From contig NZ_SCVC01000006.1 of the NCBI RefSeq assembly GCF_004297405.1, forward strand, positions 806,001-870,000: a DNA stretch of 64,000 nucleotides, read 5' to 3'. Numbering within the stretch: position 1 is the first letter of the stretch; every line of letters begins with the position of its first letter. Position numbers and translations under genes: made by a program. Under the pieces are notes generated by a model. It did no database searches. It was not told the DNA's origin and saw only the letters and a list, made by a program, of their open reading frames with translations. The stretch comes from Reyranella sp. (GTDB taxonomy: Bacteria > Pseudomonadota > Alphaproteobacteria > Reyranellales > Reyranellaceae). Positions 4,401 through 21,339 of the stretch are shown piece after piece.

Positions 4401-5387
4401 CTAGAAGTGAACGTAACCCTTGCGCGTCACCGCCGCTGGTCTTCCGCCGATCGTGAGCTGCACGCCGGCACCGCGCACGAAGCGGCCGATCCGGGTCACC
4501 TCGATCCCCGCCGCATGTGCCGCCTTGAGCAGCCCGGCCCGCTTGCGCGGCGGGATTGCGATGGCGAGTTCGTAGTCGTCGCCGCCGCCCAGCACATTTG
4601 CCCAGAGCTTCGGCTCGGCCGCCACGGCAGCGCGCGCCGCCGCCGACAACGGCACGGCATCGCGCTCGACACTCACCGCCAGCCGCGAGGCTTCGGCGAT
4701 ATGGCCAGCGTCAGCCAGCAGGCCATCTGAAACGTCGGTAGTCGCGCTCGCGATCCCGATCAGGCGAGAGCCCAGCGCGGAGCGCGGCTGCGGCAGGCGA
4801 TAACGCTCCTCGAGCGAGGCACCCTGTCGAGGCGTGATGCCTCGCAATTGCCCGCGCGCCGCCAGAAGGCCGAGCGCACCATCGCCGACCGTGCCACTCA
4901 CCCAGAGTTCGTCGCCCGCCCGTGCCCTGTCACGACCGAGGCCCTTGCCACGCGCGACCTTGCCGAAAGCCGTGATCGTTACGGTGAGCGGCCCCGGCGT
5001 CACGACCGTATCGCCGCCGCAGAGCACCACGCCGTAGCGACGCTGGTCCGCCGCCAATCCCTTCGCGAAACCAGTGATCCAGCTTTCGCGCCAAGCTGCC
5101 GGCAGGGCGAGCGAGAGCTGATAGACGAAAGGCGTCGCACCGCCGGCCGCGAGGTCGGAAAGGCAGACGCGCAGCGCCTTCGCTCCGACACGCTCGGGCC
5201 GCTCATCGGCCAGGAAATGAACGCCGGCCACGATCGTGTCGGTCTTCACCACGAGATCGTGGCGCGGATCGGCGGGCAGGAAGGCGTTGTCGCTCTTGAG
5301 GCCGCCGGCGCCGTCGAAGCCGCGGGCGAGCGGCGCGAAATAGCGGGCAATCAACTCGAACTCGCCGATACGCCGGCGCGGCGCCAC
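4401..5387 (-). CDS. thiL: Thiamine-monophosphate kinase
   Basis: A 328-residue ATP-dependent kinase that converts thiamine monophosphate to the diphosphate cofactor. Family features are present: G-E-F-E-L-I near the start, V-K-T-D-T-I-V-A-G-V-H-F, the glycine-rich L-C-G-G-D-T-V, the D-V-S-D-G-L segment and G-G-G-D-D-Y-E-L near the C-terminus. The start is a GTG at 5387, six bases beyond the nusB stop, so translation is probably coupled. nusB followed by thiL is a widespread pairing in proteobacteria. Confidence 0.95.
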   Translation of the reverse strand: MAPRRRIGEFELIARYFAPLARGFDGAGGLKSDNAFLPADPRHDLVVKTDTIVAGVHFLADERPERVGAKALRVCLSDLAAGGATPFVYQLSLALPAAWRESWITGFAKGLAADQRRYGVVLCGGDTVVTPGPLTVTITAFGKVARGKGLGRDRARAGDELWVSGTVGDGALGLLAARGQLRGITPRQGASLEERYRLPQPRSALGSRLIGIASATTDVSDGLLADAGHIAEASRLAVSVERDAVPLSAAARAAVAAEPKLWANVLGGGDDYELAIAIPPRKRAGLLKAAHAAGIEVTRIGRFVRGAGVQLTIGGRPAAVTRKGYVHF

Positions 5388-5393
5388 GGCGTG

Positions 5394-5861
5394 CTACTTC
5401 GCCAGATCGGCCGAGCGCGACTGGCGCGCTACGCGGTCGAGCACGGAGTTCACGAAGTTCGGCTCGCCCTTGCCATAGAAGGCGTGCGCGATCTCGACAT
5501 ACTCGTTGATCACCACGCGTGCCGGCACGTCGTGACGATGCACCAGCTCGTAGGTGCCCGCCAACAGGATCGCCCGCACGAGCCGGTCGACACGCGCCCA
5601 GGTCCAGTCCTGCGCCAGCGCATCCGAAACGGTTTTCTCCAGCTCGAACTTGTGCGAGGCGGTTCCTTCGACGACGTCCTTGAATAGCGGACGGTCGGCA
5701 TCGCGGCGCATCCCGCCCTCGCCCGTCTCGCCCGTCCGAACCTTCAGGAACTGCTCGACGATCTCGGCCGGAGCGTCCTGTCCTTCCTGCCACTGATAGA
5801 GCGCCTGAACCGCCGCCAGCCGCGCAGCCTGGCGACGGCTGGGCGCGGGCTTGTCGCTCAC
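5394..5861 (-). CDS. nusB: Transcription antitermination factor NusB
   Basis: A 155-residue all-helical RNA-binding protein that with NusE (S10) binds boxA and supports antitermination of rRNA transcription. It has the basic N-terminus (R-R-Q-A-A-R-L-A-A-V-Q-A-L-Y), the conserved V-D-R-L-V-R-A-I-L stretch and the terminal F-V-N-S-V-L-D motif. The start is a GTG at 5861 that overlaps the ribH stop codon (GTGA). An acidic and glycine-rich insertion around residues 42-55 (G-E-T-G-E-G-G) is slightly longer than in E. coli NusB. Confidence 0.95.
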   Translation of the reverse strand: MSDKPAPSRRQAARLAAVQALYQWQEGQDAPAEIVEQFLKVRTGETGEGGMRRDADRPLFKDVVEGTASHKFELEKTVSDALAQDWTWARVDRLVRAILLAGTYELVHRHDVPARVVINEYVEIAHAFYGKGEPNFVNSVLDRVARQSRSADLAK

Positions 5862-6346
5862 GAGCTCTTCCAGCGGCGGCCGAGTGCCACCATGGCGAGG
5901 CAGGCATGAGCAGCGTCGCCGCCCTTGTCGCCGCGGTCGATGAAGGCGCGCGCCTCGGCCTGCTCCATCGTGTTGACTGTCACGATGCCGTAGCCGATCG
6001 CCAGCTTCTTCTGAATGGAGAGGTCCATCAGTCCACGCGCACTCTCGCCGCAGACATAGTCATAGTGCGAGGTCTCGCCGCGAATGACGCAGCCCAGCGC
6101 GACATAGCCGTCGTAGCGCTTGCCCTTCTTCGAGGCGGCCAGAGCGATGGCGCCGGGAATCTCGAAGGCGCCCGGCACGGCGACGCGCTCGACTTTGGCA
6201 CCGTTCTTCTTGATCTCGCGCTCCGCGCCCGCGACCAATGCCGCAGCGATCTCCGTATAATAAGGAGACTCGACGATCAGGATGCGTGCGCCCTTGACGC
6301 CGGCGACTGCCGGCCGCGCCGTCGGCGTTTCCGTCCGTGTCGACAT
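5858..6346 (-). CDS. ribH: 6,7-dimethyl-8-ribityllumazine synthase
   Basis: A 162-residue enzyme that condenses 5-amino-6-ribitylaminouracil with dihydroxybutanone phosphate, the penultimate step of riboflavin synthesis; the family forms 60-mer or pentameric shells. The P-G-A-F-E-I-P motif (58-64) and G-E-T-S-H-Y-D-Y, carrying the proton-transferring histidine near residue 94, are intact. I chose the ATG at 6346, two bases past the ribB stop. The frame is open further upstream, but that part lies antisense-in-frame over ribB and has no family similarity. Confidence 0.95.
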   Translation of the reverse strand: MSTRTETPTARPAVAGVKGARILIVESPYYTEIAAALVAGAEREIKKNGAKVERVAVPGAFEIPGAIALAASKKGKRYDGYVALGCVIRGETSHYDYVCGESARGLMDLSIQKKLAIGYGIVTVNTMEQAEARAFIDRGDKGGDAAHACLAMVALGRRWKSS

Positions 6347-11619: not shown

Positions 11620-12732
11620 CTACTTGGTCGACGGGTAGGACTTGCCGTCCTTCCAGACGTAGATGTCGTAGACCGCGTTCTTGATGTCGCCCTTGGCGTC
11701 GAATTCGAGGACGCCGACGGCGGAGTCATACTTGCCGGAGCGCAGCGCCGCGGCGACCGCGGCTGCATCGGTCGACTTCGCCTTGTTGGCAGCGTCGGCC
11801 CAAGCCTTCACCGCGGCGTAGCTGAACAGCGTGTAGCCTTCCGGATTGTACTTGGCGTCGCGGAACTTCTTCACGAGTGCCGCATTCTTCGGGTCGTCCT
11901 CGGCCTTCGGCGGGAACGACATCAGCACGCCGTTGGTCGCCGCACCGCCCAGCTGGGCGAATTCGGCGGTCTCCAGCGAGTCGAAGCCCATCATCTGGGC
12001 CATCAGCCCCTGCTCGCGCGACTGCTTGATGATCAGCGCGCCCGCCGTGTGGTAGCCGCCGAGCACGATGATGTCGATCTTGGCCTGCTTCATCTTGTTG
12101 ACGAGGGCCGCGAAGTCCTTGTCGGTGTCGTTGTAGGCCTCGTACATGGCCTCGCGCAGACCACCCTTGTTCAGAGCCTTCTTGGTCTCGTCAGCCACGC
12201 CTTTGCCGTAGGGCGACTTGTCGTGGAGGATCGCGACCCTGGCCGTCTTGTGGTTCTTCAGGATGTAGTTGCCGACCGTCGTGCCCTGCACGTCGTCACG
12301 GCCGCAGGTGCGGAACACGGTCGTGTTGCCCTTGGTGGCCGCATCCTCGGTCAGCTTCGGGTTGGTCGAAGCCGGCGTGATCTGGAGGATCTTACCTTCC
12401 TTGTAGATGTCCGACGCCGGGATCGAGGAACCCGAGCAGAAATGCCCGGCCACGAACACCACCTTGTCGGAGACCATCTTGTTGGCCACGGCCGTCGCCT
12501 GCTTCGGGTCGCAGGCATCGTCACCGATTATGAGCTCGAGCTTCTGGCCGTTCACGCCGCCGGCGGCGTTGATGTCTTCCACTGCCATCTGCGCGCCGCG
12601 CTTGAGCTGCTCGCCGAAGGCCGCGTTCGAACCTGTCATCGGACCGGCCGAGCCGATCTTGATCTGGGCAAGCGCCGGTGTCGCCATGAGCGCGACGGCG
12701 GCGACGGCCAGGGTGCCGTATAACTTCTTCAT
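11620..12732 (-). CDS. livK: Branched-chain amino acid ABC transporter, periplasmic binding protein
   Basis: A 370-residue periplasmic receptor of the Leu/Ile/Val-binding family. The signal peptide ends with A-L-A before Gln23. The mature protein begins I-K-I-G-S-A-G-P-M-T-G, as is typical, and the G-D-D-A-C-D-P-K-Q-A and H-F-C-S-G-S-S motifs match the ligand-binding lobes. A ribosome site (AAGGGAG) precedes ATG 12732. It is the last gene of the livHMGF cluster; its own stem-loop upstream may help set a higher level than the membrane subunits. Confidence 0.95.
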   Translation of the reverse strand: MKKLYGTLAVAAVALMATPALAQIKIGSAGPMTGSNAAFGEQLKRGAQMAVEDINAAGGVNGQKLELIIGDDACDPKQATAVANKMVSDKVVFVAGHFCSGSSIPASDIYKEGKILQITPASTNPKLTEDAATKGNTTVFRTCGRDDVQGTTVGNYILKNHKTARVAILHDKSPYGKGVADETKKALNKGGLREAMYEAYNDTDKDFAALVNKMKQAKIDIIVLGGYHTAGALIIKQSREQGLMAQMMGFDSLETAEFAQLGGAATNGVLMSFPPKAEDDPKNAALVKKFRDAKYNPEGYTLFSYAAVKAWADAANKAKSTDAAAVAAALRSGKYDSAVGVLEFDAKGDIKNAVYDIYVWKDGKSYPSTK

Positions 12733-12756
12733 CCCTAGTCTCCCTTATTGAGCCCC

Positions 12757-12772
12757 CTCCGCTGGTGCGGAG
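12757..12772 (-). other. Small stem-loop just upstream of livK
   Basis: CTCCGC (12757-12762) and GCGGAG (12767-12772) form a 6-bp stem with a TGGT loop in the 53-base gap before livK. There is no T-run on the minus strand, so it is unlikely to be a full terminator. It could be an mRNA processing or stability element that separates livK expression from the upstream genes. This is inference only. Confidence 0.4.
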
Positions 12773-12785
12773 CATGGCGGTTACA

Positions 12786-13148
12786 TTAGTGCCGCTCCTC
12801 CCAACCCAGCAAGCCTTTGCGCCGATAGAGCCAGGGATACTGGTGAACCATCTGACGCGCGCGTGTCAGGCGATAGGCGAAAGCCGCGATGGCGAGTTGC
12901 ACAGCCCAGCCAAGCACGAAGCCGCCGATCGACCACAGCTCGCCATTGGCCAGCGCGTAGTCGAGGAAACGCAGCGTCGCGGCGAGAAGCGCGGTGTAGA
13001 AAACGATCTGCGGCCAAGGCCGCCAGATCAGCGCCACCGCGTGCCCCGCGGCAAACGACGCCGGCCCGACCAGGACGAGATTGAACAGCACGACGTTGAA
13101 CAGCGTGTCGCCGAACCAATCGAACATGAAGGTGTCGAGTGGGCTCAT
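12786..13148 (-). CDS. Small integral membrane protein of the liv cluster
   Basis: A 120-residue protein with about three hydrophobic segments (roughly 15-40, 48-62 and 70-92) and a basic, aromatic C-terminal tail (H-Q-Y-P-W-L-Y-R-R-K-G). I recall similar small proteins (DUF6867) sitting between livF and livK in alphaproteobacteria, but I could not verify that. No transporter role is established. Its position 10 bases past livF implies co-expression with the importer. Confidence 0.75.
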   Translation of the reverse strand: MSPLDTFMFDWFGDTLFNVVLFNLVLVGPASFAAGHAVALIWRPWPQIVFYTALLAATLRFLDYALANGELWSIGGFVLGWAVQLAIAAFAYRLTRARQMVHQYPWLYRRKGLLGWEERH

Positions 13149-13158
13149 GAGGGCGGGC

Positions 13159-13887
13159 TCATCCGTGACCGCCTTCCAGATAGGCGGCGCGGACTTCCTG
13201 GTTTGCCAGCAGTTCGCGGCCGGTGCCGCTCAAGCGCACCCGTCCGTTCGCCAGCACATAGCCGCGATCGGCGAGCCTCAGCGCATGGAACGCATTCTGC
13301 TCCACCAGGAAGACCGTGACGTTCTCCTCACGGGCGATACGGCCGACGGCATCAAAGATCTGACGCACGATCAACGGCGCAAGGCCAAGTGACGGCTCAT
13401 CGAGCAACAGCAGCCGCGGCCGGCTCATCAGCGCCCGGCCGATCGCCAGCATCTGCTGCTCGCCACCCGACAGCGTACCGCCGCGTTGCGTCCGCCGCTC
13501 GGCGAGCCGAGGGAACATCGTGAAGACACGATCGAGATCGCTGCTGAAATGCGCAGGATCGGCGAGCGTCGCCCCCATCTGCAGGTTCTCGAACACGCTC
13601 ATGCGCGGGAAGATGCGTCGGCCTTCCGGCACCTGCGCCACGCCACGCCGCACAATCTCGTGCGTCTGAAGCGACGTGATCTCCTCGCCGTCGAACCGGA
13701 TGCTGCCTGAGCGCGCCCGCGGATTGCCACAGATCGTCATCAGCAAGGTCGACTTGCCGGCTCCGTTGGCGCCGATCAGGGTCACGATCTCGCCGCGCGC
13801 GACGTCGAGGTCGACACCATGCAGGGCCTGGATCGCGCCATAGAAGGTGGTCAGTCCCTTCACCGACAGGATCGACGTCTCAGCCAT
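13159..13887 (-). CDS. livF: Branched-chain amino acid ABC transporter ATPase LivF
   Basis: A 242-residue ATPase subunit. It has Walker A G-A-N-G-A-G-K-S-T, the ABC signature L-S-G-G-E-Q-Q-M, Walker B L-L-L-L-D-E-P and the LivF-typical E-G-R-R-I-F-P after the Q-loop region. I chose the ATG at 13887, which overlaps the livG end by eight bases. The frame is open about 90 bases further upstream, but that is livG sequence in another frame. Confidence 0.95.
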   Translation of the reverse strand: MAETSILSVKGLTTFYGAIQALHGVDLDVARGEIVTLIGANGAGKSTLLMTICGNPRARSGSIRFDGEEITSLQTHEIVRRGVAQVPEGRRIFPRMSVFENLQMGATLADPAHFSSDLDRVFTMFPRLAERRTQRGGTLSGGEQQMLAIGRALMSRPRLLLLDEPSLGLAPLIVRQIFDAVGRIAREENVTVFLVEQNAFHALRLADRGYVLANGRVRLSGTGRELLANQEVRAAYLEGGHG

Positions 13888-14701
13888 CGATCGCCTCGTC
13901 GTCGGTGCCGAGGTAGGCGCGAATGACTGCCGGGTCGTTCTTGATCGCCGCCGGGTTGCCCTCGGCGATCTTGCGGCCATAGTCGAGCACGACGATGTGG
14001 TCGGATATGTTCATGACCACGCTCATGTCGTGCTCGATCAGCAGCACGCCGATACCGTCGCGATCGCGGATCGAGACCAGGAGTTCGTTGAGCTCTGCAG
14101 ATTCGCGGGGATTGAGTCCGGCCGCCGGCTCGTCGAGGCAGAGAAGCTCGGGCTCGGTACACATGGCGCGGGCGATCTCGAGTCGCCTCTGCGCTCCGTA
14201 AGGGAGTTCGCCCGCCGGCCGGTCGGCGTCGGCGAGAAGCCTGATGCGCTCCAGCCAGCTTCGTGCCAATTCGACCGCAGCCTTCTCGGCATCGCGGTAA
14301 CGCGCAATCCCCAGCAGGCCCAGGATGCTCCAGCCGGAGGCGCGCATCAGCTTGTTGTGCTGCGCGACCAGCAGATTCTCCAGCACGGTCATGCCGGGAA
14401 AGAGCCGGATGTTCTGAAAAGTCCGCGCCACCTTCGCGCGCTGCCCGATCTCATGGCCCAGCATGCGCTCCAGCAGGAATTCACCCCTGCCCCCGCGCAG
14501 CGTCAGCCGCCCGACGGTCGGCTTGTAGAAGCCGGTGATGCAGTTGAACACCGTGGTCTTGCCGGCGCCGTTGGGCCCGATGATCGCGGTGATCTCGCGC
14601 GGGCGGGCGGTGAAGGAGACATCGTCGATCGCCACCAGACCACCGAAGCGCATGGTCAGATGTTCGACCTCGATGAGCGGTGTGGCGGTAGCCACGCTCA
14701 T
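13880..14701 (-). CDS. livG: Branched-chain amino acid ABC transporter ATPase LivG
   Basis: A 273-residue ATPase subunit that pairs with LivF. It has Walker [10 protein letters not shown], the Q-loop R-T-F-Q-N-I-R-L-F, a modified signature (L-P-Y-G-A-Q-R-R) and Walker [13 protein letters not shown], all usual for LivG. The ATG at 14701 (M-S-V-A-T-A-T-P) overlaps the livM stop by four bases. A longer frame reaching 14842 lies inside livM and was rejected. Confidence 0.95.
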
Positions 14702-16113
14702 CCGCTGCCTCCCGATCCGGCGGGATGCAGGCGAATGGAGGGTTCGCGATGGGCGATCAGTCCGCGCGGGCGGAATACCATGATCAGCACCATCGCCATT
14801 CCAAAGGCGAGCATGCGGTAGTTGCCGAGATCGCGGAACCACTCCGGCAGGCCAATCAGCAGGACCGCGGCCAGCACCACGCCGATCTGGCTGCCCATGC
14901 CGCCCAGCACCACGATGGCGAGGATGATCGCCGATTCGATGAACACGAAGCTCTCGGGGCTGATGAAGCGCTGCTTGGCGGCAAAGAACGACCCAGCGAA
15001 GCCCGCGAACATCGCGCCGATGGCGAAGGCCGTGAGCTTGGTGTTGGTCGGGTTGATGCCTAGCGCCCGGCAGGCGGTTTCGTCCTCACGCAACGCCTCC
15101 CAGGCGCGACCGACCGGCAGGCGGCGCATGCGTTGGGTGAACACGTTGGTGATCAGCGCCAGTACGAGGATGATGTAATAGAGGAAGATCAGGCGATGAT
15201 TGCCGTCGAACGGAATGCCGAGCATTTCCGACACGGTCTGTTTGCCGGCCGGCGCCGTTTCGGCGAACACCGCTCCAAACAAGGTCGGCCCCGGAATTGA
15301 GCCAATGCCAGCCGGCCCGTTAGTCAGGTCGAACCAATTGAGCAGGATCAGGCGGATGATCTCGCCGAACCCCAGGGTCACGATGGCGAGGTAGTCGCCG
15401 CGCAGCCTGAGCACCGGGAAACCCAGCAATATGCCAAACAGCGCCGCCATCATGCCGGCGAGCGGCAGCACCGACCAGAAACCAAGGCCGTGCTGTGTGC
15501 TCAACAGCGCATAGGAATAAGCGCCCACCGCGTAGAAAGCGACGTAACCGAGATCGAGCAGGCCCGCGAGGCCGACGACGATGTTAAGCCCCCAGCCCAG
15601 CATCACGTAGGTCAGGATCAGCACGCCGAGATCCATCGTCTTCTGGTCGGCAAAGGGCGTGAACGGCATCACAACCGCCCCCGCCAGCAGCAACCAGCCG
15701 AACCATTTGGTACCGGCCGTGGAGAGTGCTCGCCCCGAGGGTGTGCGCGCCGCTTCGTTCACTGCACTGTTGGCCCAGGGCCAGATGGCGCGGATCACCA
15801 GGAGCACGCCGCCCAGCGCCACGAACCAGTGCAGGAAGCTCGAGGGCAGTTGCATCGGCGAGGCGCCCGCTGCGATCATCACGGCCCCTAGTGCAATCGC
15901 GGGCCACCGCAGGCCGTTCGCCGCCAGCGACAGGCCGAGACGTCCCACGAAGATCACGACGACAGCCACCGCGAGGTCGACGAGGTGGTAGTCGAAGGTA
16001 AGTCCGCGACCGATATCGACGGTACGGAAGCCAACGATGAAGATGCCGAGTGCCGCTCCGACGAAGGCGGTAAGGCCCGCGTCCTTCAGCATCTGGGGCA
16101 GACGCGAACCCAT
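14698..16113 (-). CDS. livM: Branched-chain amino acid ABC transporter permease LivM
   Basis: A 471-residue inner-membrane permease, longer than the approximately 320-residue core because of an N-terminal extension of about 150 residues with three or four extra hydrophobic segments. The conserved core begins at [13 protein letters not shown] and contains the coupling helix region [11 protein letters not shown]. The start at 16113 lies four bases after the livH stop. Confidence 0.95.
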
Positions 16114-16117
16114 GCGT

Positions 16118-17032
16118 TCAGACCTTCTCGATCTCCGGTTTGCCGAGCAGTCCGGTCGGCCGGAAGATCAGCACCAGGACCAGGATCGCGAAGGCGGCAA
16201 CGTCCTTGTACTCGCTGGAAAAATAGCCGGCCCAGAAGACCTCGATCAGGCCGATGAGCAGCCCGCCCAGCATGGCGCCCGGCAGCGAACCGATGCCGCC
16301 CAGCACGGCGGCGGTGAAGGCCTTGATGCCGGCGAGGAAGCCAATGAAGAAGTCGATGACGCCGTAGTACATCAGGAACAGCATGCCGGCGACGGCCGCC
16401 AGAGCAGCGCCCAGCACGAAGGTGAGCGAGATCGTGCGGTCGACATTGACGCCGAGCAGTGACGCCATCTTCATGTCCTGCTCGCAGGCTCGCTGCTGAC
16501 GCCCGAGCGAGGTGCGCGCAATCAGCCAGGTGAAGCCCGCCATCAGCACGATCGTCACCACGACGATGATGATCTGCAGCCAGGTGACGCGAACGTCGAA
16601 GCCATCATCGGTGAAGAGATTGAATCCGCCCGAAACGATCTGCCCGCCCGGCTTGGGCCGCGCGCCCTGGGCGAGCTGCACGTAGTTCTGGAGGGCGATC
16701 GACACGCCGATGGCGGAGATCAACGGTGCGAGACGGAACGAACCGCGCAATGGTCGATAGGCCGTGCGTTCTATCGACCAGCCGTAGACGGCGGAAAAGG
16801 CCATCGCCAGCAACAGCACGAGGAGGATCGCGACCGGCGCCGAACCGATCCCCAGCATGCTGCAGATCATGAACCCGATGAGCGAGATGAACGCACCGAT
16901 CATGAAAACTTCGCCGTGCGCGAAATTGATCATGCCGATGATGCCATAGACCATCGTGTACCCGATGGCGATCAGGCCGTAGATGGCGCCCAGCGTGATG
17001 GCGTTGATCAGCTGTTGCGTGAAGTACGCCAT
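16118..17032 (-). CDS. livH: Branched-chain amino acid ABC transporter permease LivH
   Basis: A 304-residue permease with about eight hydrophobic segments, first gene of the liv operon. The family motifs [16 protein letters not shown] near the N-terminus and [10 protein letters not shown] in the coupling loop are present. It is divergent from the enoyl-CoA hydratase gene; the 89-base gap 17033-17121 must hold both promoters. Confidence 0.95.
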
Positions 17033-17121: not shown

Positions 17122-17898
17122 ATGGACGATCTCAAGATGATCCGGGTGCAAATCGCGGACCACATTGCCGTCGTGACGATGGACAACCCGCCGGTGAATG
17201 CACAGAACGCCGAACTACAGGATGAGATGATCCGCGCCTTCGACCGGATCTCCGACCTCGACGAGGTGCGGGTCGCCGTCCTTACGGGCAAGGGCAAGTG
17301 CTTCTGTGCCGGCGTCGATATCAAGGCCCGCGCCGGCGCCCAGCGCGGACCGGGCGATGCCTGGCGCGGCATGCGCTATGCCCGCGAGTGCTTCCACGCC
17401 ATCATGGAATGCAAGAAGCCGGTAATCGCCGCCATCAATGGCCCCGCGCTCGGCGCGGGCCTCGCGGTCGCGGCTTCCTGCGATATTCTCGTCGCCGGCG
17501 AGAGCGCCTCGGTCGGCCTGCCCGAGATCGATGTCGGCCTGATGGGCGGTGGACGCCACGCCATGCGCCTGTTCGGCCATTCGCGGGCGCGGCGCATGAT
17601 GCTGACGGGCTATCGCGTGCCGGGCCCCGAGCTCTATCGGCTCGGCGTGGTCGAGGCCTGCGTGCCCGACGACAAGTTGATGGACACCGTGATGGACCTC
17701 GCCCGCCAGATCGCCGCCAAGAGCCCGATCGCCAGCGTCACGGCCAAGCATGCGCTGAACACGATCGAGGAGATGACCCTGCGCGACGGTTATCGCTTCG
17801 AGCAGAACATGACGGTGAACCTGCAGGGCACCGAGGATTCGAAGGAGGCGATGCGCGCCTTCATCGAGAAGCGTAAGCCCGTGTTCAAGGGCCGATGA
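17122..17898 (+). CDS. Enoyl-CoA hydratase/isomerase family protein
   Basis: A 258-residue crotonase-fold protein acting on an acyl-CoA. The oxyanion-hole segments are K-C-F-C-A-G-V-D-I-K and N-G-P-A-L-G-A-G-L-A. The usual catalytic glutamate region reads P-E-I-D-V-G-L-M-G-G. A ribosome site (GGAGGA) precedes the ATG by five bases. It is the first plus-strand gene before the redox cluster and only 36 bases separate it from the flavoprotein gene, so co-transcription is possible. The exact substrate is unknown. Confidence 0.88.
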   Translation: MDDLKMIRVQIADHIAVVTMDNPPVNAQNAELQDEMIRAFDRISDLDEVRVAVLTGKGKCFCAGVDIKARAGAQRGPGDAWRGMRYARECFHAIMECKKPVIAAINGPALGAGLAVAASCDILVAGESASVGLPEIDVGLMGGGRHAMRLFGHSRARRMMLTGYRVPGPELYRLGVVEACVPDDKLMDTVMDLARQIAAKSPIASVTAKHALNTIEEMTLRDGYRFEQNMTVNLQGTEDSKEAMRAFIEKRKPVFKGR

Positions 17899-17934: not shown

Positions 17935-18804
17935 ATGGCACCTCCCTCCCACGACGTGATCGTCATCGGCGCCGGCCCCGCGGGCCTCACTGCCGCCACC
18001 GAAGCCGCGCGAGCCGGCCTCAAGGCCTTCTGCCTCGACAAGCTCGCGCCGGGCGGCGAGCTCGTGAATCTGGGCGAACTCCACGACTTCGAGGAGATGT
18101 TCAACGGCACCGACATGGCCGCGCGCCTCACCGACGATGCAGTCGTGGCGGGCGTCGAGATCGGCTTCGGCGAGGTGACGTCCATCACCGGAAGCGGCCC
18201 GTTCACCATCGAGACGGCGGACGGCGAGCAGCACGAAGGTCGCGCCATCGTCGTGGCGACTGGCCTGAACAAGGGCAAGCTCGGCGTCCCCGAGGAAGAA
18301 AATTACGAAGGCCGCGGCCTGTCGCACTGCGCGATCTGTGACGGCCCGCTTTATGCCGGCCAGTCCGTCATTGTCGCCGGCGCCACTGGCTGGGCGCCCT
18401 ACGAGGCGGCGGCCCTCGTCGGCATCGCCAGCGACGTGACCCTGCTCGGCACGCCGGACGGCAAGGTCGCCGACGGCATCAAGACCCTGCCGGGCCGTAT
18501 CGTCGGCCTTGGCGGCAGCAACGGTCTGGAGTCGGTGACCATCGAAAACGACGGCGCGCGAAACGACATTTCGGCCAACGCGGTGTTCGTCTATGTCGGC
18601 CAGTCTCCCGCTGCGGAATTCGTGCCGGATTCGCTTGCACGCGACGCCACCGGGCATATCGTTGTCGACGAACAGGGCCGGACCTCGGCGCCGCTGATCT
18701 TCGCGGTGGGTGACGTTCGGGCCGGAGCACGGCATTACATCGCCGACGCGATCGCCGACGGCCAGAAGGTGGCCAGGGAGATCGTGGCGGCGCTCAAGCC
18801 ATAG
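17935..18804 (+). CDS. Thioredoxin-reductase-like FAD flavoprotein with CxxC but no canonical NADPH site
   Basis: A 289-residue two-dinucleotide-domain flavoprotein, shorter than typical TrxB (about 315-320). The FAD site is intact: V-I-G-A-G-P-A-G at 10-17 and a C-terminal G-D-V near 235. The redox pair is C-A-I-C-D-G with Cys132 and Cys135. The second dinucleotide motif is altered to G-A-T-G-W-A, and the H-R-R-x3-R loop that binds the 2'-phosphate of NADPH is missing (L-L-G-T-P-D-G instead). It probably takes electrons from NADH or another donor. It lies 17 bases upstream of the selenoprotein gene, so I infer it reduces that protein. Confidence 0.85.
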   Translation: MAPPSHDVIVIGAGPAGLTAATEAARAGLKAFCLDKLAPGGELVNLGELHDFEEMFNGTDMAARLTDDAVVAGVEIGFGEVTSITGSGPFTIETADGEQHEGRAIVVATGLNKGKLGVPEEENYEGRGLSHCAICDGPLYAGQSVIVAGATGWAPYEAAALVGIASDVTLLGTPDGKVADGIKTLPGRIVGLGGSNGLESVTIENDGARNDISANAVFVYVGQSPAAEFVPDSLARDATGHIVVDEQGRTSAPLIFAVGDVRAGARHYIADAIADGQKVAREIVAALKP

Positions 18805-18821
18805 CGGTGAGGAGCACGGGC

Positions 18822-19337
18822 ATGCGTATCATCAACCCGACCTTTGGACTGGCGGCTGCCGGTGGCGCAAAGGTGGCGCTGAAACCCGTCAACTGGGCGA
18901 CCGACGCCATCGCGCTCGTTTCCAACTCCAAGCCGAACGCCCGCGAACTGCTGTCCGGCATCCGCGACAAGCTCGGCGCGTTCCGAACGGTCGACAATAT
19001 CGACTTCCTTTCCAAAAACAGCGCCAGCCAGCCGGCGCCAAAGGATCTGCTTCAGGAGGTCGCCGCGAAGTATCGCGGTGCCCTCCTCGCCATAGCGGAT
19101 TGAGGAAGCTGTTCATCGTGGAGTTTCCACGACAGCATCGAACTCGAGAAGCTCGGCATCACGGCCTACGTGATCGCCACTGAAACTTTCAAGCCGCTGG
19201 TCCTCGCCCAGGCGAAGGCCCGCAAGGTCGAACCACGGCTGATCGTGGTGAAGCATCCGATCGGTGGCCTCAACGCGGAAGAGCTGCGTGAGCGCATCGA
19301 AGCGGCGACCAAGGGACTGAGCGAGGCGACGAAATGA
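18822..19337 (+). CDS. UGSC-motif selenoprotein (TGA at codon 94 read as selenocysteine)
   Basis: The frame opens at ATG 18822, seven bases after TGAGGAG, and meets an in-frame TGA at 19101-19103. Beyond it the same frame stays open to a TGA at 19335-19337, giving 171 residues. The codons around the first TGA read D-[TGA]-G-S-C-S-S-W-S-F-H-D, the U-G-S-C motif after which a (seleno)protein family is named. A stem-loop suited to a bacterial SECIS follows at once. The final stop overlaps the next start (ATGA), as expected for an intact gene. I infer a small Sec/Cys thiol-redox protein. A conventional gene caller would report only a 93-residue product. An inactivating stop or sequencing error is the alternative but would not explain the motif, hairpin and overlap together. 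Confidence 0.88.
19101..19103 (+). other. Selenocysteine codon (in-frame TGA)
   Basis: Codon 94 of the UGSC-family gene. The next three codons specify Gly-Ser-Cys, so the recoded product carries Sec94 and Cys97, a pair suited to a selenenylsulfide. Recoding would need SelB, tRNA-Sec, SelA and SelD from elsewhere in the genome; none is in this window. Confidence 0.87.
19108..19136 (+). promoter_or_regulatory. Bacterial SECIS-like stem-loop
   Basis: GCTGT (19108-19112) pairs with ACAGC (19132-19136), and CGTGGA (19117-19122) pairs with TCCACG (19126-19131). The loop is GTT and TCAT is bulged on the 5' side. The loop starts 20 bases after the TGA, has G in its first position, and sits on a 6-bp upper stem. 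From memory these fit the published bacterial SECIS rules (G in the first two loop positions, loop about 16-37 bases from the UGA). The hairpin lies wholly inside the coding region, as bacterial SECIS elements do. Confidence 0.82.
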
Positions 19338-20371
19338 AGGATATCGCCGAGCAGGAAGTGATCGACCTCGACGATATGGACGTCGAGGCGTTCAACGACT
19401 TCGCCACCGAACAGGGCTGGAGCGACGGCATGCCGCTCTATGTCCCGACCGAGGCCAAGGTCGCGAAGTTCGTCGAGACGGTGCGGGGCGACAACCGCCC
19501 CTACCCGCCCGTGCCGCCGCGCCAGATCGTGCCGACCCTGCAGGCGCTCGCGGCCAACGCCGTGATGGCCGGCTGCAAGCCGGAGTATTTCCCGGTCGTG
19601 ACCGCAGCGCTGCGGGGCGTCCTCGATCCTGACTACAATCTCCACGGAACGCTCGCCACGACGCACTCCTGCGCGCCCATGGTGATGGTGAGCGGACCGG
19701 TCCGTCACGAACTCAAGATCAACTGCGGCTCGAATTGCTTCGGCCAGGGCTGGCAGGCCAATGCCACTATCGGCCGGGCACTCGGCCTCATGCTGCTGAA
19801 CGTCGCCGGAGCCAAGCCGGGTGAGATGGACCGCTCGACCCAGGGCAATCCCGCCAAGTTCACCTTCTGCTTCGGCGAGAACGAGGAAGAGAATCCCTGG
19901 ACGCCCTACCACGTCCAGCGCGGCTTCGCGCCGACCGACAGCGTGGTCACGGTCATGTCGGGCGAAGGCCCGCATAACCTCAACGACCATGGCAGCACCA
20001 GCGGCGACGGCCTGCTGACGACTTTTGCCGGCGGCATGGCGACGCCCGGCGCCAACACGATCTACGGCAAGGGCCCGATGTTCGTGATCATCGGCCCCGA
20101 ACATGCCGCGACCTTGAAGCGCGACGGCTTTACGATCGAGAGCATCCGGCAGGAGCTTTTCGCTCGCTCGCGCGTCCATGTCTCGCGGATCTCGGCCGAG
20201 AACCAGGACACCTACATCAGCACGGGCCACAAGCCCGATGGGGACTGGTTCACGATTGCGCGGGCGCCGGAAGACATCCACATCACGGTGGCCGGCGGAC
20301 CGGGCAAGCACTCGGCCTTCATCCCGTCCTTCGGCGGCACTACGGTCGCCTGCACGCGCATTGCGCGATGA
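19334..20371 (+). CDS. Conserved cysteine-containing protein of the selenoprotein cluster (paralog A)
   Basis: A 345-residue, apparently soluble protein of unknown function. Its ATG overlaps the stop of the selenoprotein gene and its own stop overlaps the next start, so three genes are translationally coupled. It aligns along its length with the downstream gene: G-W-S-D-G-M-P-L, A-G-C-K-P-E-Y-F-P-V-V (Cys81), a Cys at 113, and N-C-G-S-N-C-F-G-Q-G (Cys135) all have counterparts. An extra cysteine, Cys131, is specific to this copy. No signal peptide or membrane segment is evident. I infer that it is a partner or substrate-binding subunit of the Sec redox protein. Confidence 0.8.
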   Translation: MKDIAEQEVIDLDDMDVEAFNDFATEQGWSDGMPLYVPTEAKVAKFVETVRGDNRPYPPVPPRQIVPTLQALAANAVMAGCKPEYFPVVTAALRGVLDPDYNLHGTLATTHSCAPMVMVSGPVRHELKINCGSNCFGQGWQANATIGRALGLMLLNVAGAKPGEMDRSTQGNPAKFTFCFGENEEENPWTPYHVQRGFAPTDSVVTVMSGEGPHNLNDHGSTSGDGLLTTFAGGMATPGANTIYGKGPMFVIIGPEHAATLKRDGFTIESIRQELFARSRVHVSRISAENQDTYISTGHKPDGDWFTIARAPEDIHITVAGGPGKHSAFIPSFGGTTVACTRIAR

Positions 20372-21339
20372 CGGAGTGGTGCGGCTGGCCGGTCGTCAGT
20401 GAGCAGACGAGCTGGGAAGACGCACAGCAGATCCTGACGGATGCCGAACTGTCGGACGGCCTGCCGTTGGTGCCGCCGACCGGCCGACGCCTCGACGCGA
20501 TGGTCGCCGGCATCAAGGATCGCAGCGAAGCCCGCGGACTGATGCCGCCGATGTTCGGGGAAGTCAGCCCCGATGCCGTCGCCTATCAATGTGTCCTGGC
20601 TGGGTGCCGCCCTGCCGAATTGCCGGTCGTGCTGGCTGCTGCCGAAGCGACTCTCGAACCGGGCTTCAATCTCCTGGGCATCGCCACCACCACCGGCACT
20701 GCATGCGTCGCCCTCTGCCTGCACGGCCCCATAGCGCGCAAGCTGGGCGTAAATGCCGGCACCAACTGCCTCGGCCCCGGCAATCGCGCCAATGCCAGCA
20801 TCGGGCGCGCGCTGCAGCTCGTCATCCGCAACATCGGCGGCGCACGTTCTGACGTCGGCGACATGGCGACCATGGGACAGCCGGGCAAATACAGCTTCTG
20901 CTTTGCCGAACGACACGACGGCCCCTTCCCCACGCTGACCGCTCGCCGTGGCCTCGGCAGCGACGCCAGCGCCCTCACCATCATGGGCGTCTCGGGCACG
21001 GCGGAGATACTGCCAGGCGACGGCGAAGGCGCGACGCCGGAAGCGATCCTCTCGCCAATTGCCGCGGGCATGCGCGCTGCGATCGTAATGTCGGGGATCA
21101 GCCGCAAGAACGAGCGTGGCGAACAGGTCGTCCTCCTGCCGCTGGAAATGGCCGAGAAGATCGTGCGTCACGACGCCTGGGACCTCGCGCGCGTGCAACG
21201 CCATCTCTTCGATGAGGGCCAGGGCGTCGCGCGTGCGCCCGAGGCGATCCATGTCATCGTGACCGGCGGCGCCGGTTACAAGATGAGCTATCTGCCGATC
21301 TGGGGCGGCGGCTCGGAGACGGTCACGCGTCCCCTCTAG
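20368..21339 (+). CDS. Conserved cysteine-containing protein of the selenoprotein cluster (paralog B)
   Basis: A 323-residue paralog of the preceding gene, starting in an ATGA overlap with it. Shared elements include L-S-D-G-L-P-L-V-P-P, A-G-C-R-P-A-E-L-P-V-V (Cys80), T-A-C (Cys113), N-A-G-T-N-C-L-G-P-G (Cys134) and A-N-A-S-I-G-R-A-L. Its N-terminus is different (M-T-E-W-C-G-W). The pair looks like an old tandem duplication kept as a heteromeric unit. Function is not known to me. It ends the cluster with a TAG at 21337-21339. Confidence 0.8.
   Translation: MTEWCGWPVVSEQTSWEDAQQILTDAELSDGLPLVPPTGRRLDAMVAGIKDRSEARGLMPPMFGEVSPDAVAYQCVLAGCRPAELPVVLAAAEATLEPGFNLLGIATTTGTACVALCLHGPIARKLGVNAGTNCLGPGNRANASIGRALQLVIRNIGGARSDVGDMATMGQPGKYSFCFAERHDGPFPTLTARRGLGSDASALTIMGVSGTAEILPGDGEGATPEAILSPIAAGMRAAIVMSGISRKNERGEQVVLLPLEMAEKIVRHDAWDLARVQRHLFDEGQGVARAPEAIHVIVTGGAGYKMSYLPIWGGGSETVTRPL

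Follow-up and report, generated by a model that had tools for sequence, protein, structure and literature searches.

Background

Does a TGA codon that splits a short reading frame in an alphaproteobacterial genome mark the end of a gene, or does it specify selenocysteine (Sec) in a protein that continues beyond it, and in what enzymatic system would such a protein take part? The frame in question lies at positions 18,822 to 19,337 of a 64,000-nucleotide stretch of Reyranella sp. DNA (assembly GCF_004297405.1, contig NZ_SCVC01000006.1, positions 806,001 to 870,000), hereafter referred to as the window. The analysis identifies the gene as a new member of the known UGSC family, with the TGA predicted as the codon for Sec at residue 94, and finds UGSC genes associated, through shared occurrence, neighbouring position and gene fusion, with an unnamed protein family, here called P345. 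The module formed with P345 is the more interesting part of the result; what is new here is that the two families occur in exactly the same genomes of two samples.

The UGSC family has been in print since 2008 (PMC2398784), and the available text of that survey, as well as that of PMC13188914, PMC9312934 and PMC5330540, lists it without a function. The 2008 survey also noted a fusion of UGSC to an unnamed domain, Unknown_1, whose identity with P345 is not visible in that text (PMC2398784). Among the open-licence papers listed for UGSC, no title or displayed abstract describes a partner protein or a link to PrdB, and no title listed for selenoproteins with Reyranella addresses this subject.

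Gene structure and family assignment

The features on which the argument rests are the following (the names P345 and, below, P323 were coined in this analysis):

18822..19337, + strand: UGSC-family gene for a predicted selenoprotein of 171 aa, with predicted Sec at residue 94 (UGSC) and Cys at residue 97
19101..19103, + strand: TGA, predicted Sec94 codon, on the basis of the sequence, of TGA in 7/7 aligned sequences and of Sec machinery in the same genome
19334..20371, + strand: P345, 345 aa, whose start overlaps the UGSC stop (ATGA)

The UGSC frame opens with the ATG at 18822, preceded by a possible Shine-Dalgarno sequence (AGGAG, 18810-18814), and comprises 93 sense codons, the TGA at 19101-19103, 77 further codons and the stop TGA at 19335-19337, which overlaps the P345 start codon at 19334-19336. 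The codons 3′ of the internal TGA (GGA AGC TGT TCA TCG TGG) read Gly-Ser-Cys-Ser-Ser-Trp, and the TGA with the following Gly-Ser-Cys places a UxxC redox motif at codons 94-97. This layout, including the ATGA overlap, is exactly as the preliminary description of the locus had it. Scanned as residues 1-170 (the final K171 was omitted in the Pfam and NCBIfam searches), the recoded protein matches the Pfam UGSC family (PF24696) with 119.5 bits, against a cut-off of 25, over residues 3-164. Because this match spans both sides of the TGA, the homology of the frame goes beyond chance, and the earlier claim that U-G-S-C is the motif of a known (seleno)protein family is borne out. Columns 94-97 are invariant or 90% conserved in a 47-row alignment of the family. 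On this sequence evidence, the split frame is predicted to be one UGSC-family gene in which TGA encodes Sec94.

Among the UGSC rows compared, the nearest to the window come from Reyranella and related alphaproteobacterial bins. A search of the protein database found 390 relatives. Of the best 120 listed, 118 are 93 aa long, and the two that were inspected (P0003 and P0017) stop at the residue just before the TGA; ordinary gene calling does truncate this gene, as had been anticipated, and public databases mostly hold the N-terminal stub of the window's UGSC subfamily. Two other relatives, P0001 and P0002, read GGSC or WGSC, with Gly or Trp in place of Sec, and P0002 extends beyond the usual end; both are likely to be sequence or translation artefacts.

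Seven of the nine sequences tried, the window included, were aligned for an analysis of selection (L083 and L085 were left out), and all seven carry TGA at the Sec codon. The pooled ratio of non-synonymous to synonymous polymorphism (pN/pS) over these seven sequences is 0.277 before the TGA and 0.170 after it; because of the latter value, the region after the TGA is taken to be under purifying selection, in agreement with the contention that this is no decayed pseudogene. A sequencing error for TGC or TGT at 19101-19103 is not plausible, as orthologues in independently assembled genomes have the same TGA.

TGA-coded relatives were found in several phyla. Over 127 distinct UGSC sites, counted as those matching the motif pattern, the Sec codon is TGA in 115, TAG in 2, TGC in 6 and TGT in 4; the ten sites with TGC or TGT supply the Cys-coded homologues, aligning across the TGA, whose existence the preliminary description had made a test of its proposal. 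A parsimony count on a tree of 125 UGSC genes, 10 of them Cys-coded, gives a minimum of 8 Sec/Cys switches, and branches with good support require 4 or more of these; the tree is based on few columns, and the two TAG-coded rows are absent from it.

Association of UGSC with P345

Occurrence was compared in two genome samples, scoring at most 8 candidates per genome for UGSC and 5 for P345, so that weak members could be missed. Of 385 genomes of the class, the P345 profile (A3) matches 38, a set identical to that of the genomes with UGSC; in a second sample of 398 genomes, each family is found in five, again an identical set, and two of the five also belong to the first sample. Named genomes were scanned with a narrower profile (A1), and the best 80 of 567 P345 loci were retained. 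By record title these come from Pseudomonadota, Chloroflexota, Actinomycetota, Rokubacteria, one haloarchaeon and others, and UGSC is present in 74 of the 80. Conversely, all 23 of the longer loci chosen for UGSC (L026-L028 and L059-L078) contain P345. A lax search for UGSC gave no match in the six loci with P345 only; three of these start at or just before P345 (L091, L106 and L124) and one ends just after it (L100). In the other two, L133 and L153, no UGSC lies within about 6 kb of the P345-family genes, which are possibly users of another redox partner.

A same-strand P345 accompanies 124 distinct UGSC genes in their loci, within 300 bases in 119 cases, with UGSC first in 88 pairs and second in 36. 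UGSC and P345 form a single frame in 27 of the 124 cases, any stop codon being confined to the UGSC part; three of these fusions (L062, L134 and L158) encode Cys and contain no stop at all. On a Chloroflexi contig (L141:5431-10753), three UGSC-P345 units stand in tandem, each with a TGA.

The P345 family is large, with 6,910 matches among 7,997 database candidates scored. Its 57 rows yielded no Pfam family matched by more than one row (best E-value 0.007). Residues D31, G32, P34, G121, R148, N156, E182 and G321 of P345 are invariant. Some P345 C-termini (L027, L043, L072 and similar ones) end in a Cys-x-Asp-Cys or Asp-Cys tail, absent from the P345 and P323 proteins of the window, which may possibly act as an extra redox relay.

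SECIS-type hairpin

A candidate selenocysteine insertion sequence (SECIS) lies downstream of the TGA:

19116..19132, + strand: apical hairpin, bacterial SECIS-type element, 7-bp stem TCGTGGA/TCCACGA, loop GTT

Bacterial SECIS elements are described in Fig. 2 of PMC13188914 as having a loop of 3-9 nt with G in the first two positions, a stem of 4-16 bp, a distance of 16-37 nt from the UGA and a minimum free energy (MFE) of at most -7.5. With a 3-nt GTT loop located 19 nt after the TGA, a 7-bp stem and MFE values of -15.2 and -16.6 kcal/mol for the two stretches folded, the window hairpin falls within all of these ranges. The fold of 19101-19150 has a z-score of -2.63, 1 of 200 dinucleotide shuffles being as stable, and that of 19095-19145 a z-score of -1.50, with 13 of 200.

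The hairpin covaries over 117 Sec-coded relatives; its marks are for the most part missing from Cys-coded ones. AGT serves as the loop codon at 94 of the 117 Sec-coded sites, compared with a background share of 5% for AGT among Ser codons (the others are GTG in 11, TGT in 9, ACC in 2 and AGC in 1), and the third bases of the sixth and eighth codons after Sec pair in 114 (G-C in 67, C-G in 47). This pairing is compensatory: where the sixth residue is Trp (TGG) as opposed to Cys or Ala (TGC, GCC), the third base of the eighth codon switches to match. At the ten Cys-coded sites the AGT loop codon never occurs and the third-base pair is kept in five. Redrawing synonymous codons at the background frequencies of P345 genes gives an expectation of 4.45 ± 0.12 stem pairs out of 7 for Sec-coded sites, which in fact have 6.44. 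Across the 127 distinct sites, the sequence evidence for a SECIS element is strong. A few Sec-coded sites (L134, L143 and L148) have no such hairpin at the usual place. An initial synonymous-shuffle test, with mean z-scores of -1.26 (115 TGA), -0.82 (2 TAG), -0.94 (6 TGC) and +0.68 (4 TGT), was dropped because its codons were drawn from the SECIS region itself, which made it too strict.

Selenocysteine machinery

Four UGSC genes are present in the genome containing the window (6.46 Mb, 98.8% complete), and a single in-frame TGA interrupts each of them. Readthrough of these codons by Sec would call for selA, selB, selD and tRNA-Sec, and all four, which the preliminary description had proposed to look for, are present. 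The scores are 460.6 bits for selB (cut-off 242), 559 for selA (cut-off 268) and 287.6 for selD (cut-off 125), the tRNA-Sec has anticodon UCA, and selB, tRNA-Sec(UCA) and selA share one contig. The same genome holds a second, weaker match to the tRNA-Sec model (52.7 bits). A weak match to the selD profile inside the window (4620-5198, minus strand, within a 328-aa frame at 4401-5387) scored 47 bits against the cut-off of 125 and was rejected as selD.

Within the sample of 385 genomes, UGSC is found in 38, selA over its cut-off in 56 and both in 35 (Fisher P 1.6e-31). The three UGSC genomes with no selA match are G011, which is 77% complete and has four TGA forms, and G326 and G363, each with a single, TGA-free UGSC match; G246 has only a TGA-free match, yet selA is present. 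One in-frame TGA is carried by 95 of the 100 UGSC matches in this sample, and one of the other five (in G313) is partial, ending short of the Sec position.

Eleven named genomes, picked by codon type from 80 named loci, were checked for tRNA-Sec. The UCA form is present in 4/4 genomes with TGA-coded UGSC, and both genomes with TAG-coded UGSC have a match to the tRNA-Sec model of 65-67 bits with anticodon CUA, labelled Pyl by ARAGORN. In the five genomes with Cys-coded UGSC, the best model match scores 37-51 bits, four of them above the 47-bit gathering score, and is a tRNA-Ser or tRNA-Leu according to ARAGORN.

Gene neighbourhood

UGSC is the third of five same-strand genes in the window, the order being enoyl-CoA (coenzyme A) hydratase, thioredoxin-reductase-like (TrxR-like) protein, UGSC, P345 and P323. 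The remaining members, and a set of divergent transporter genes, are:

17122..17898, + strand: enoyl-CoA hydratase/isomerase family, first of the five; NF005073, 425.6 bits, exceeding the cut-off of 296
17935..18804, + strand: thioredoxin-reductase-like flavoprotein, 289 aa, with CAIC at residues 132-135; TIGR01292 and Pyr_redox_2
20368..21339, + strand: P323, 323 aa, a second, diverged P345-family member whose start overlaps the previous stop (ATGA)
11620..17032, - strand: divergent genes of a branched-chain-amino-acid-type ATP-binding cassette (ABC) transporter by Pfam (binding protein, two ATPases, two permeases), given for context only

P345 and P323 are paralogues (30% identity over 332 columns, E-value 6e-46), and neither has a Pfam or NCBIfam match at an E-value of 0.01. 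The surroundings in the window also hold an amidase and an amidohydrolase. The upstream flavoprotein is called TrxR-like only, because its score of 196.3 bits lies under the TIGR01292 cut-off of 343.45. Where the TrxR-like gene is present in related loci, it stands directly upstream of UGSC in 16 of 23 cases, and its CxxC is kept in the window and in all 23 homologues. In Blastococcus (L096, about 4613-5926) and Geodermatophilus (L098, about 4679-5935) the TrxR-like part and UGSC form one frame, with TAG at the Sec codon (L096:5729-5731 and L098:5738-5740), no other stop between the parts and the same hairpin 3′ of the codon; here the genomic tRNA-Sec-model match has anticodon CUA. UAG-coded selenoproteins with the UGSC motif are already in print for Geodermatophilaceae, in the available text of PMC5330540. 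The TrxR-like flavoprotein, through its CAIC motif, is the likely electron donor predicted for UGSC.

Around 104 places in related loci, neighbouring frames cluster into the tripartite tricarboxylate receptor TctC (22), branched-chain-type ABC ATPase (15), CoA-transferase III (11), MmgE/PrpD (7) and AMP-binding enzyme (7). The clusters derive from greedy frame picking with antisense frames included; ten representatives were checked against Pfam, one per cluster, and only the clusters so checked are quoted. They fit the catabolism of an imported organic acid.

Predicted structures and relation to PrdB and GrdB

The AlphaFold2 model of UGSC (mean predicted local distance difference test score, pLDDT, 91.6) has five strands and five helices in alternation, with residue 94 just before the helix at 95-110, and its order of elements looks Rossmann-like. 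The P345 model, also with a pLDDT of 91.6, returned no convincing structural match, which is no proof of a new fold; a weak Foldseek match links it to fumarate hydratase (E-value 2.7e-3, TM-score 0.25).

Profile comparison with hhalign of 126 UGSC rows against 20 PrdB-like sequences aligned Sec on Sec over 80 columns, with a probability of 90.4, a P-value of 1.4e-6 and a score of 48.6. The score exceeds the maximum of 200 column shuffles (23.9) and that of the reversed profile (13.2), and with the Sec and Cys columns masked it falls to 39.5 (probability 70.9). This suggestive sequence relation to PrdB/GrdB is offered as a lead towards function, with no claim of membership: the UGSC protein of the window has no TIGR04483 or PF07355 match at an E-value of 0.01.

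The GRDB Pfam model has matches in 21 of the 25 UGSC genomes searched, out of 38. Twenty of the matching loci were fetched, and all have an in-frame TGA in the motif, which reads UPxC in 19 and UPLD in one (L185). Three such sequences (L174, L191 and the L076 copy of L176) score 30.7-51.2 bits against GRDB, over its cut-off of 22, and 102.9-160.8 bits against PrdB TIGR04483, under its cut-off of 300. At L076:6295-6981, on the minus strand, a PrdB-like UPxC selenoprotein gene directly follows UGSC, giving two Sec proteins in one cluster.

Discussion

Because the UGSC members examined are nearly always beside or fused to P345, we consider UGSC, itself a predicted selenoprotein, likely to be the redox subunit of a Sec-dependent reductase built with P345, to which we assign a probability of roughly 0.6. 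Electrons would pass from NAD(P)H through flavin adenine dinucleotide (FAD) to the CxxC (CAIC) of the TrxR-like flavoprotein and from there to Sec94/Cys97 of UGSC. The reduced Sec94 selenolate would then attack a substrate held by or with P345, and the resulting selenenylsulfide would be reduced again. Reductive cleavage, perhaps of a C-N bond, is proposed as the reaction because of the distant relation of UGSC to PrdB/GrdB, and the pathway may break down a small organic acid or amino acid that the cell imports.

Several observations weigh against this reading. As regards linkage, most of the 57 rows of the A3 profile come from loci beside UGSC, a bias towards detecting pairs of this kind; L133 and L153 are complete loci with P345 and no UGSC; and the best UGSC of G065, in L046, has no P345 in its 3.5-kb locus, the only such case among 29 short loci (L030-L058), the P345 of that genome being on another contig. 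P345 matches no known catalytic family, and adjacency to the TrxR-like gene is limited to part of the loci, that gene being present in 23 of 103 at all. As regards recoding, the hairpin of the window stands out only moderately by itself (z-score -0.64 in the stricter synonymous-shuffle test), and Cys-coded sites also lie slightly over the redrawn expectation (4.50 stem pairs against 3.65 ± 0.35). The NCBIfam model NF041046 gives 111.5 bits (E-value 3.5e-32, residues 29-166), narrowly under its cut-off of 125, which is why the Pfam family name is used here and not that of the NCBIfam equivalog. The suggestive link to PrdB/GrdB is by profile-profile comparison only: none of 47 UGSC members matches PF07355 (18 families were matched at an E-value of 1), the own genome has no PF07355 match, and profile comparison gives no sign of a relation between P345 and PrdB-like proteins (score 14.1). 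The best of 23 other neighbour clusters, an amidohydrolase cluster, scores 34.2 against UGSC; 28 clusters were compared, of which five contain UGSC stubs or frames fused with UGSC and cannot serve as controls, and the 23 controls include some antisense frames. Finally, fold searches of the Protein Data Bank place UGSC only among generic Rossmann/flavodoxin-like folds, and because the matches are only generic the fold gives no function.

Of the competing explanations, the one that survives best, although we regard it as unlikely, makes UGSC a general thiol-disulfide or peroxide-type oxidoreductase, thioredoxin-like in character, with P345 as a client or regulator and no joint enzyme. The UxxC motif and the TrxR-like neighbour with its CxxC are in keeping with such a role, and a thioredoxin-like fold was proposed for the family in the available text of the 2008 survey (PMC2398784); against it, the five alternating strands and helices of the model are unlike the thioredoxin fold as generally known, and the co-occurrence with P345, with 27 of 124 genes fused, would be tighter than expected of a general redox protein. 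No thioredoxin-like protein appears in the Foldseek and VIA rows listed for UGSC, though a match of this kind may yet exist. We find it distinctly improbable that UGSC and P345 form a non-reductive enzyme, such as an isomerase or lyase active in a CoA-linked pathway, with Sec serving as a nucleophile only, an arrangement to which the CoA-transferase III, MmgE/PrpD and AMP-binding (acyl-CoA synthetase-like) clusters, the enoyl-CoA hydratase gene of the window and the weak fumarate hydratase match of P345 would lend themselves. That the TGA is an ordinary stop, leaving a 93-aa truncated protein or a decayed pseudogene, agrees with where gene callers end nearly all of the best listed relatives, and is already contradicted, to the point of being hardly credible, by conservation and purifying selection after the TGA, by the SECIS-type hairpin with its synonymous-site constraint, by TGA in relatives of several phyla and by the Sec machinery of the genome.

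The reductase reading can be narrowed further, tentatively and at somewhat less than even odds, to a selenoenzyme of the glycine/D-proline reductase kind distributed over several phyla, in which UGSC would be a trimmed relative of PrdB/GrdB, P345 would be a new catalytic or substrate-binding protein replacing the pyruvoyl subunit, and a dedicated TrxR-like protein would provide the drive. With a partner that is constant, a likely donor and a remote relative among enzymes, the UGSC family becomes a testable enzyme, its naturally Cys-coded and fused versions need no selenium machinery, and P345 constitutes a large family that has so far gone unnamed.

Compared with known systems, the window protein shares with the UGSC family (PF24696/NF041046) a profile match across the Sec position, the UGSC motif and a UGA followed by a SECIS-type hairpin; many members read UGSCxxC, whereas the window protein has Trp in place of the later Cys (UGSCSSW). 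The UGSC proteins of Geodermatophilaceae belong to the same family and have the hairpin at the same position, but differ in their UAG Sec codon and in their fusion to a TrxR-like part. PrdB and GrdB have pyruvoyl-type partner subunits, PrdA and GrdE respectively. With PrdB (TIGR04483) and GrdB (PF07355), UGSC has in common a UxxC motif, a suggestive profile alignment that places Sec on Sec, and a dedicated partner protein; that partner, P345, is unrelated by profile to PrdB-like proteins and, unlike the partner of PrdB/GrdB, is not known to carry a pyruvoyl group. PrdB, which is treated in PMC1088965, is associated with PrdC in the available text of PMC13188914, whereas the likely donor of UGSC is the TrxR-like flavoprotein encoded beside it.
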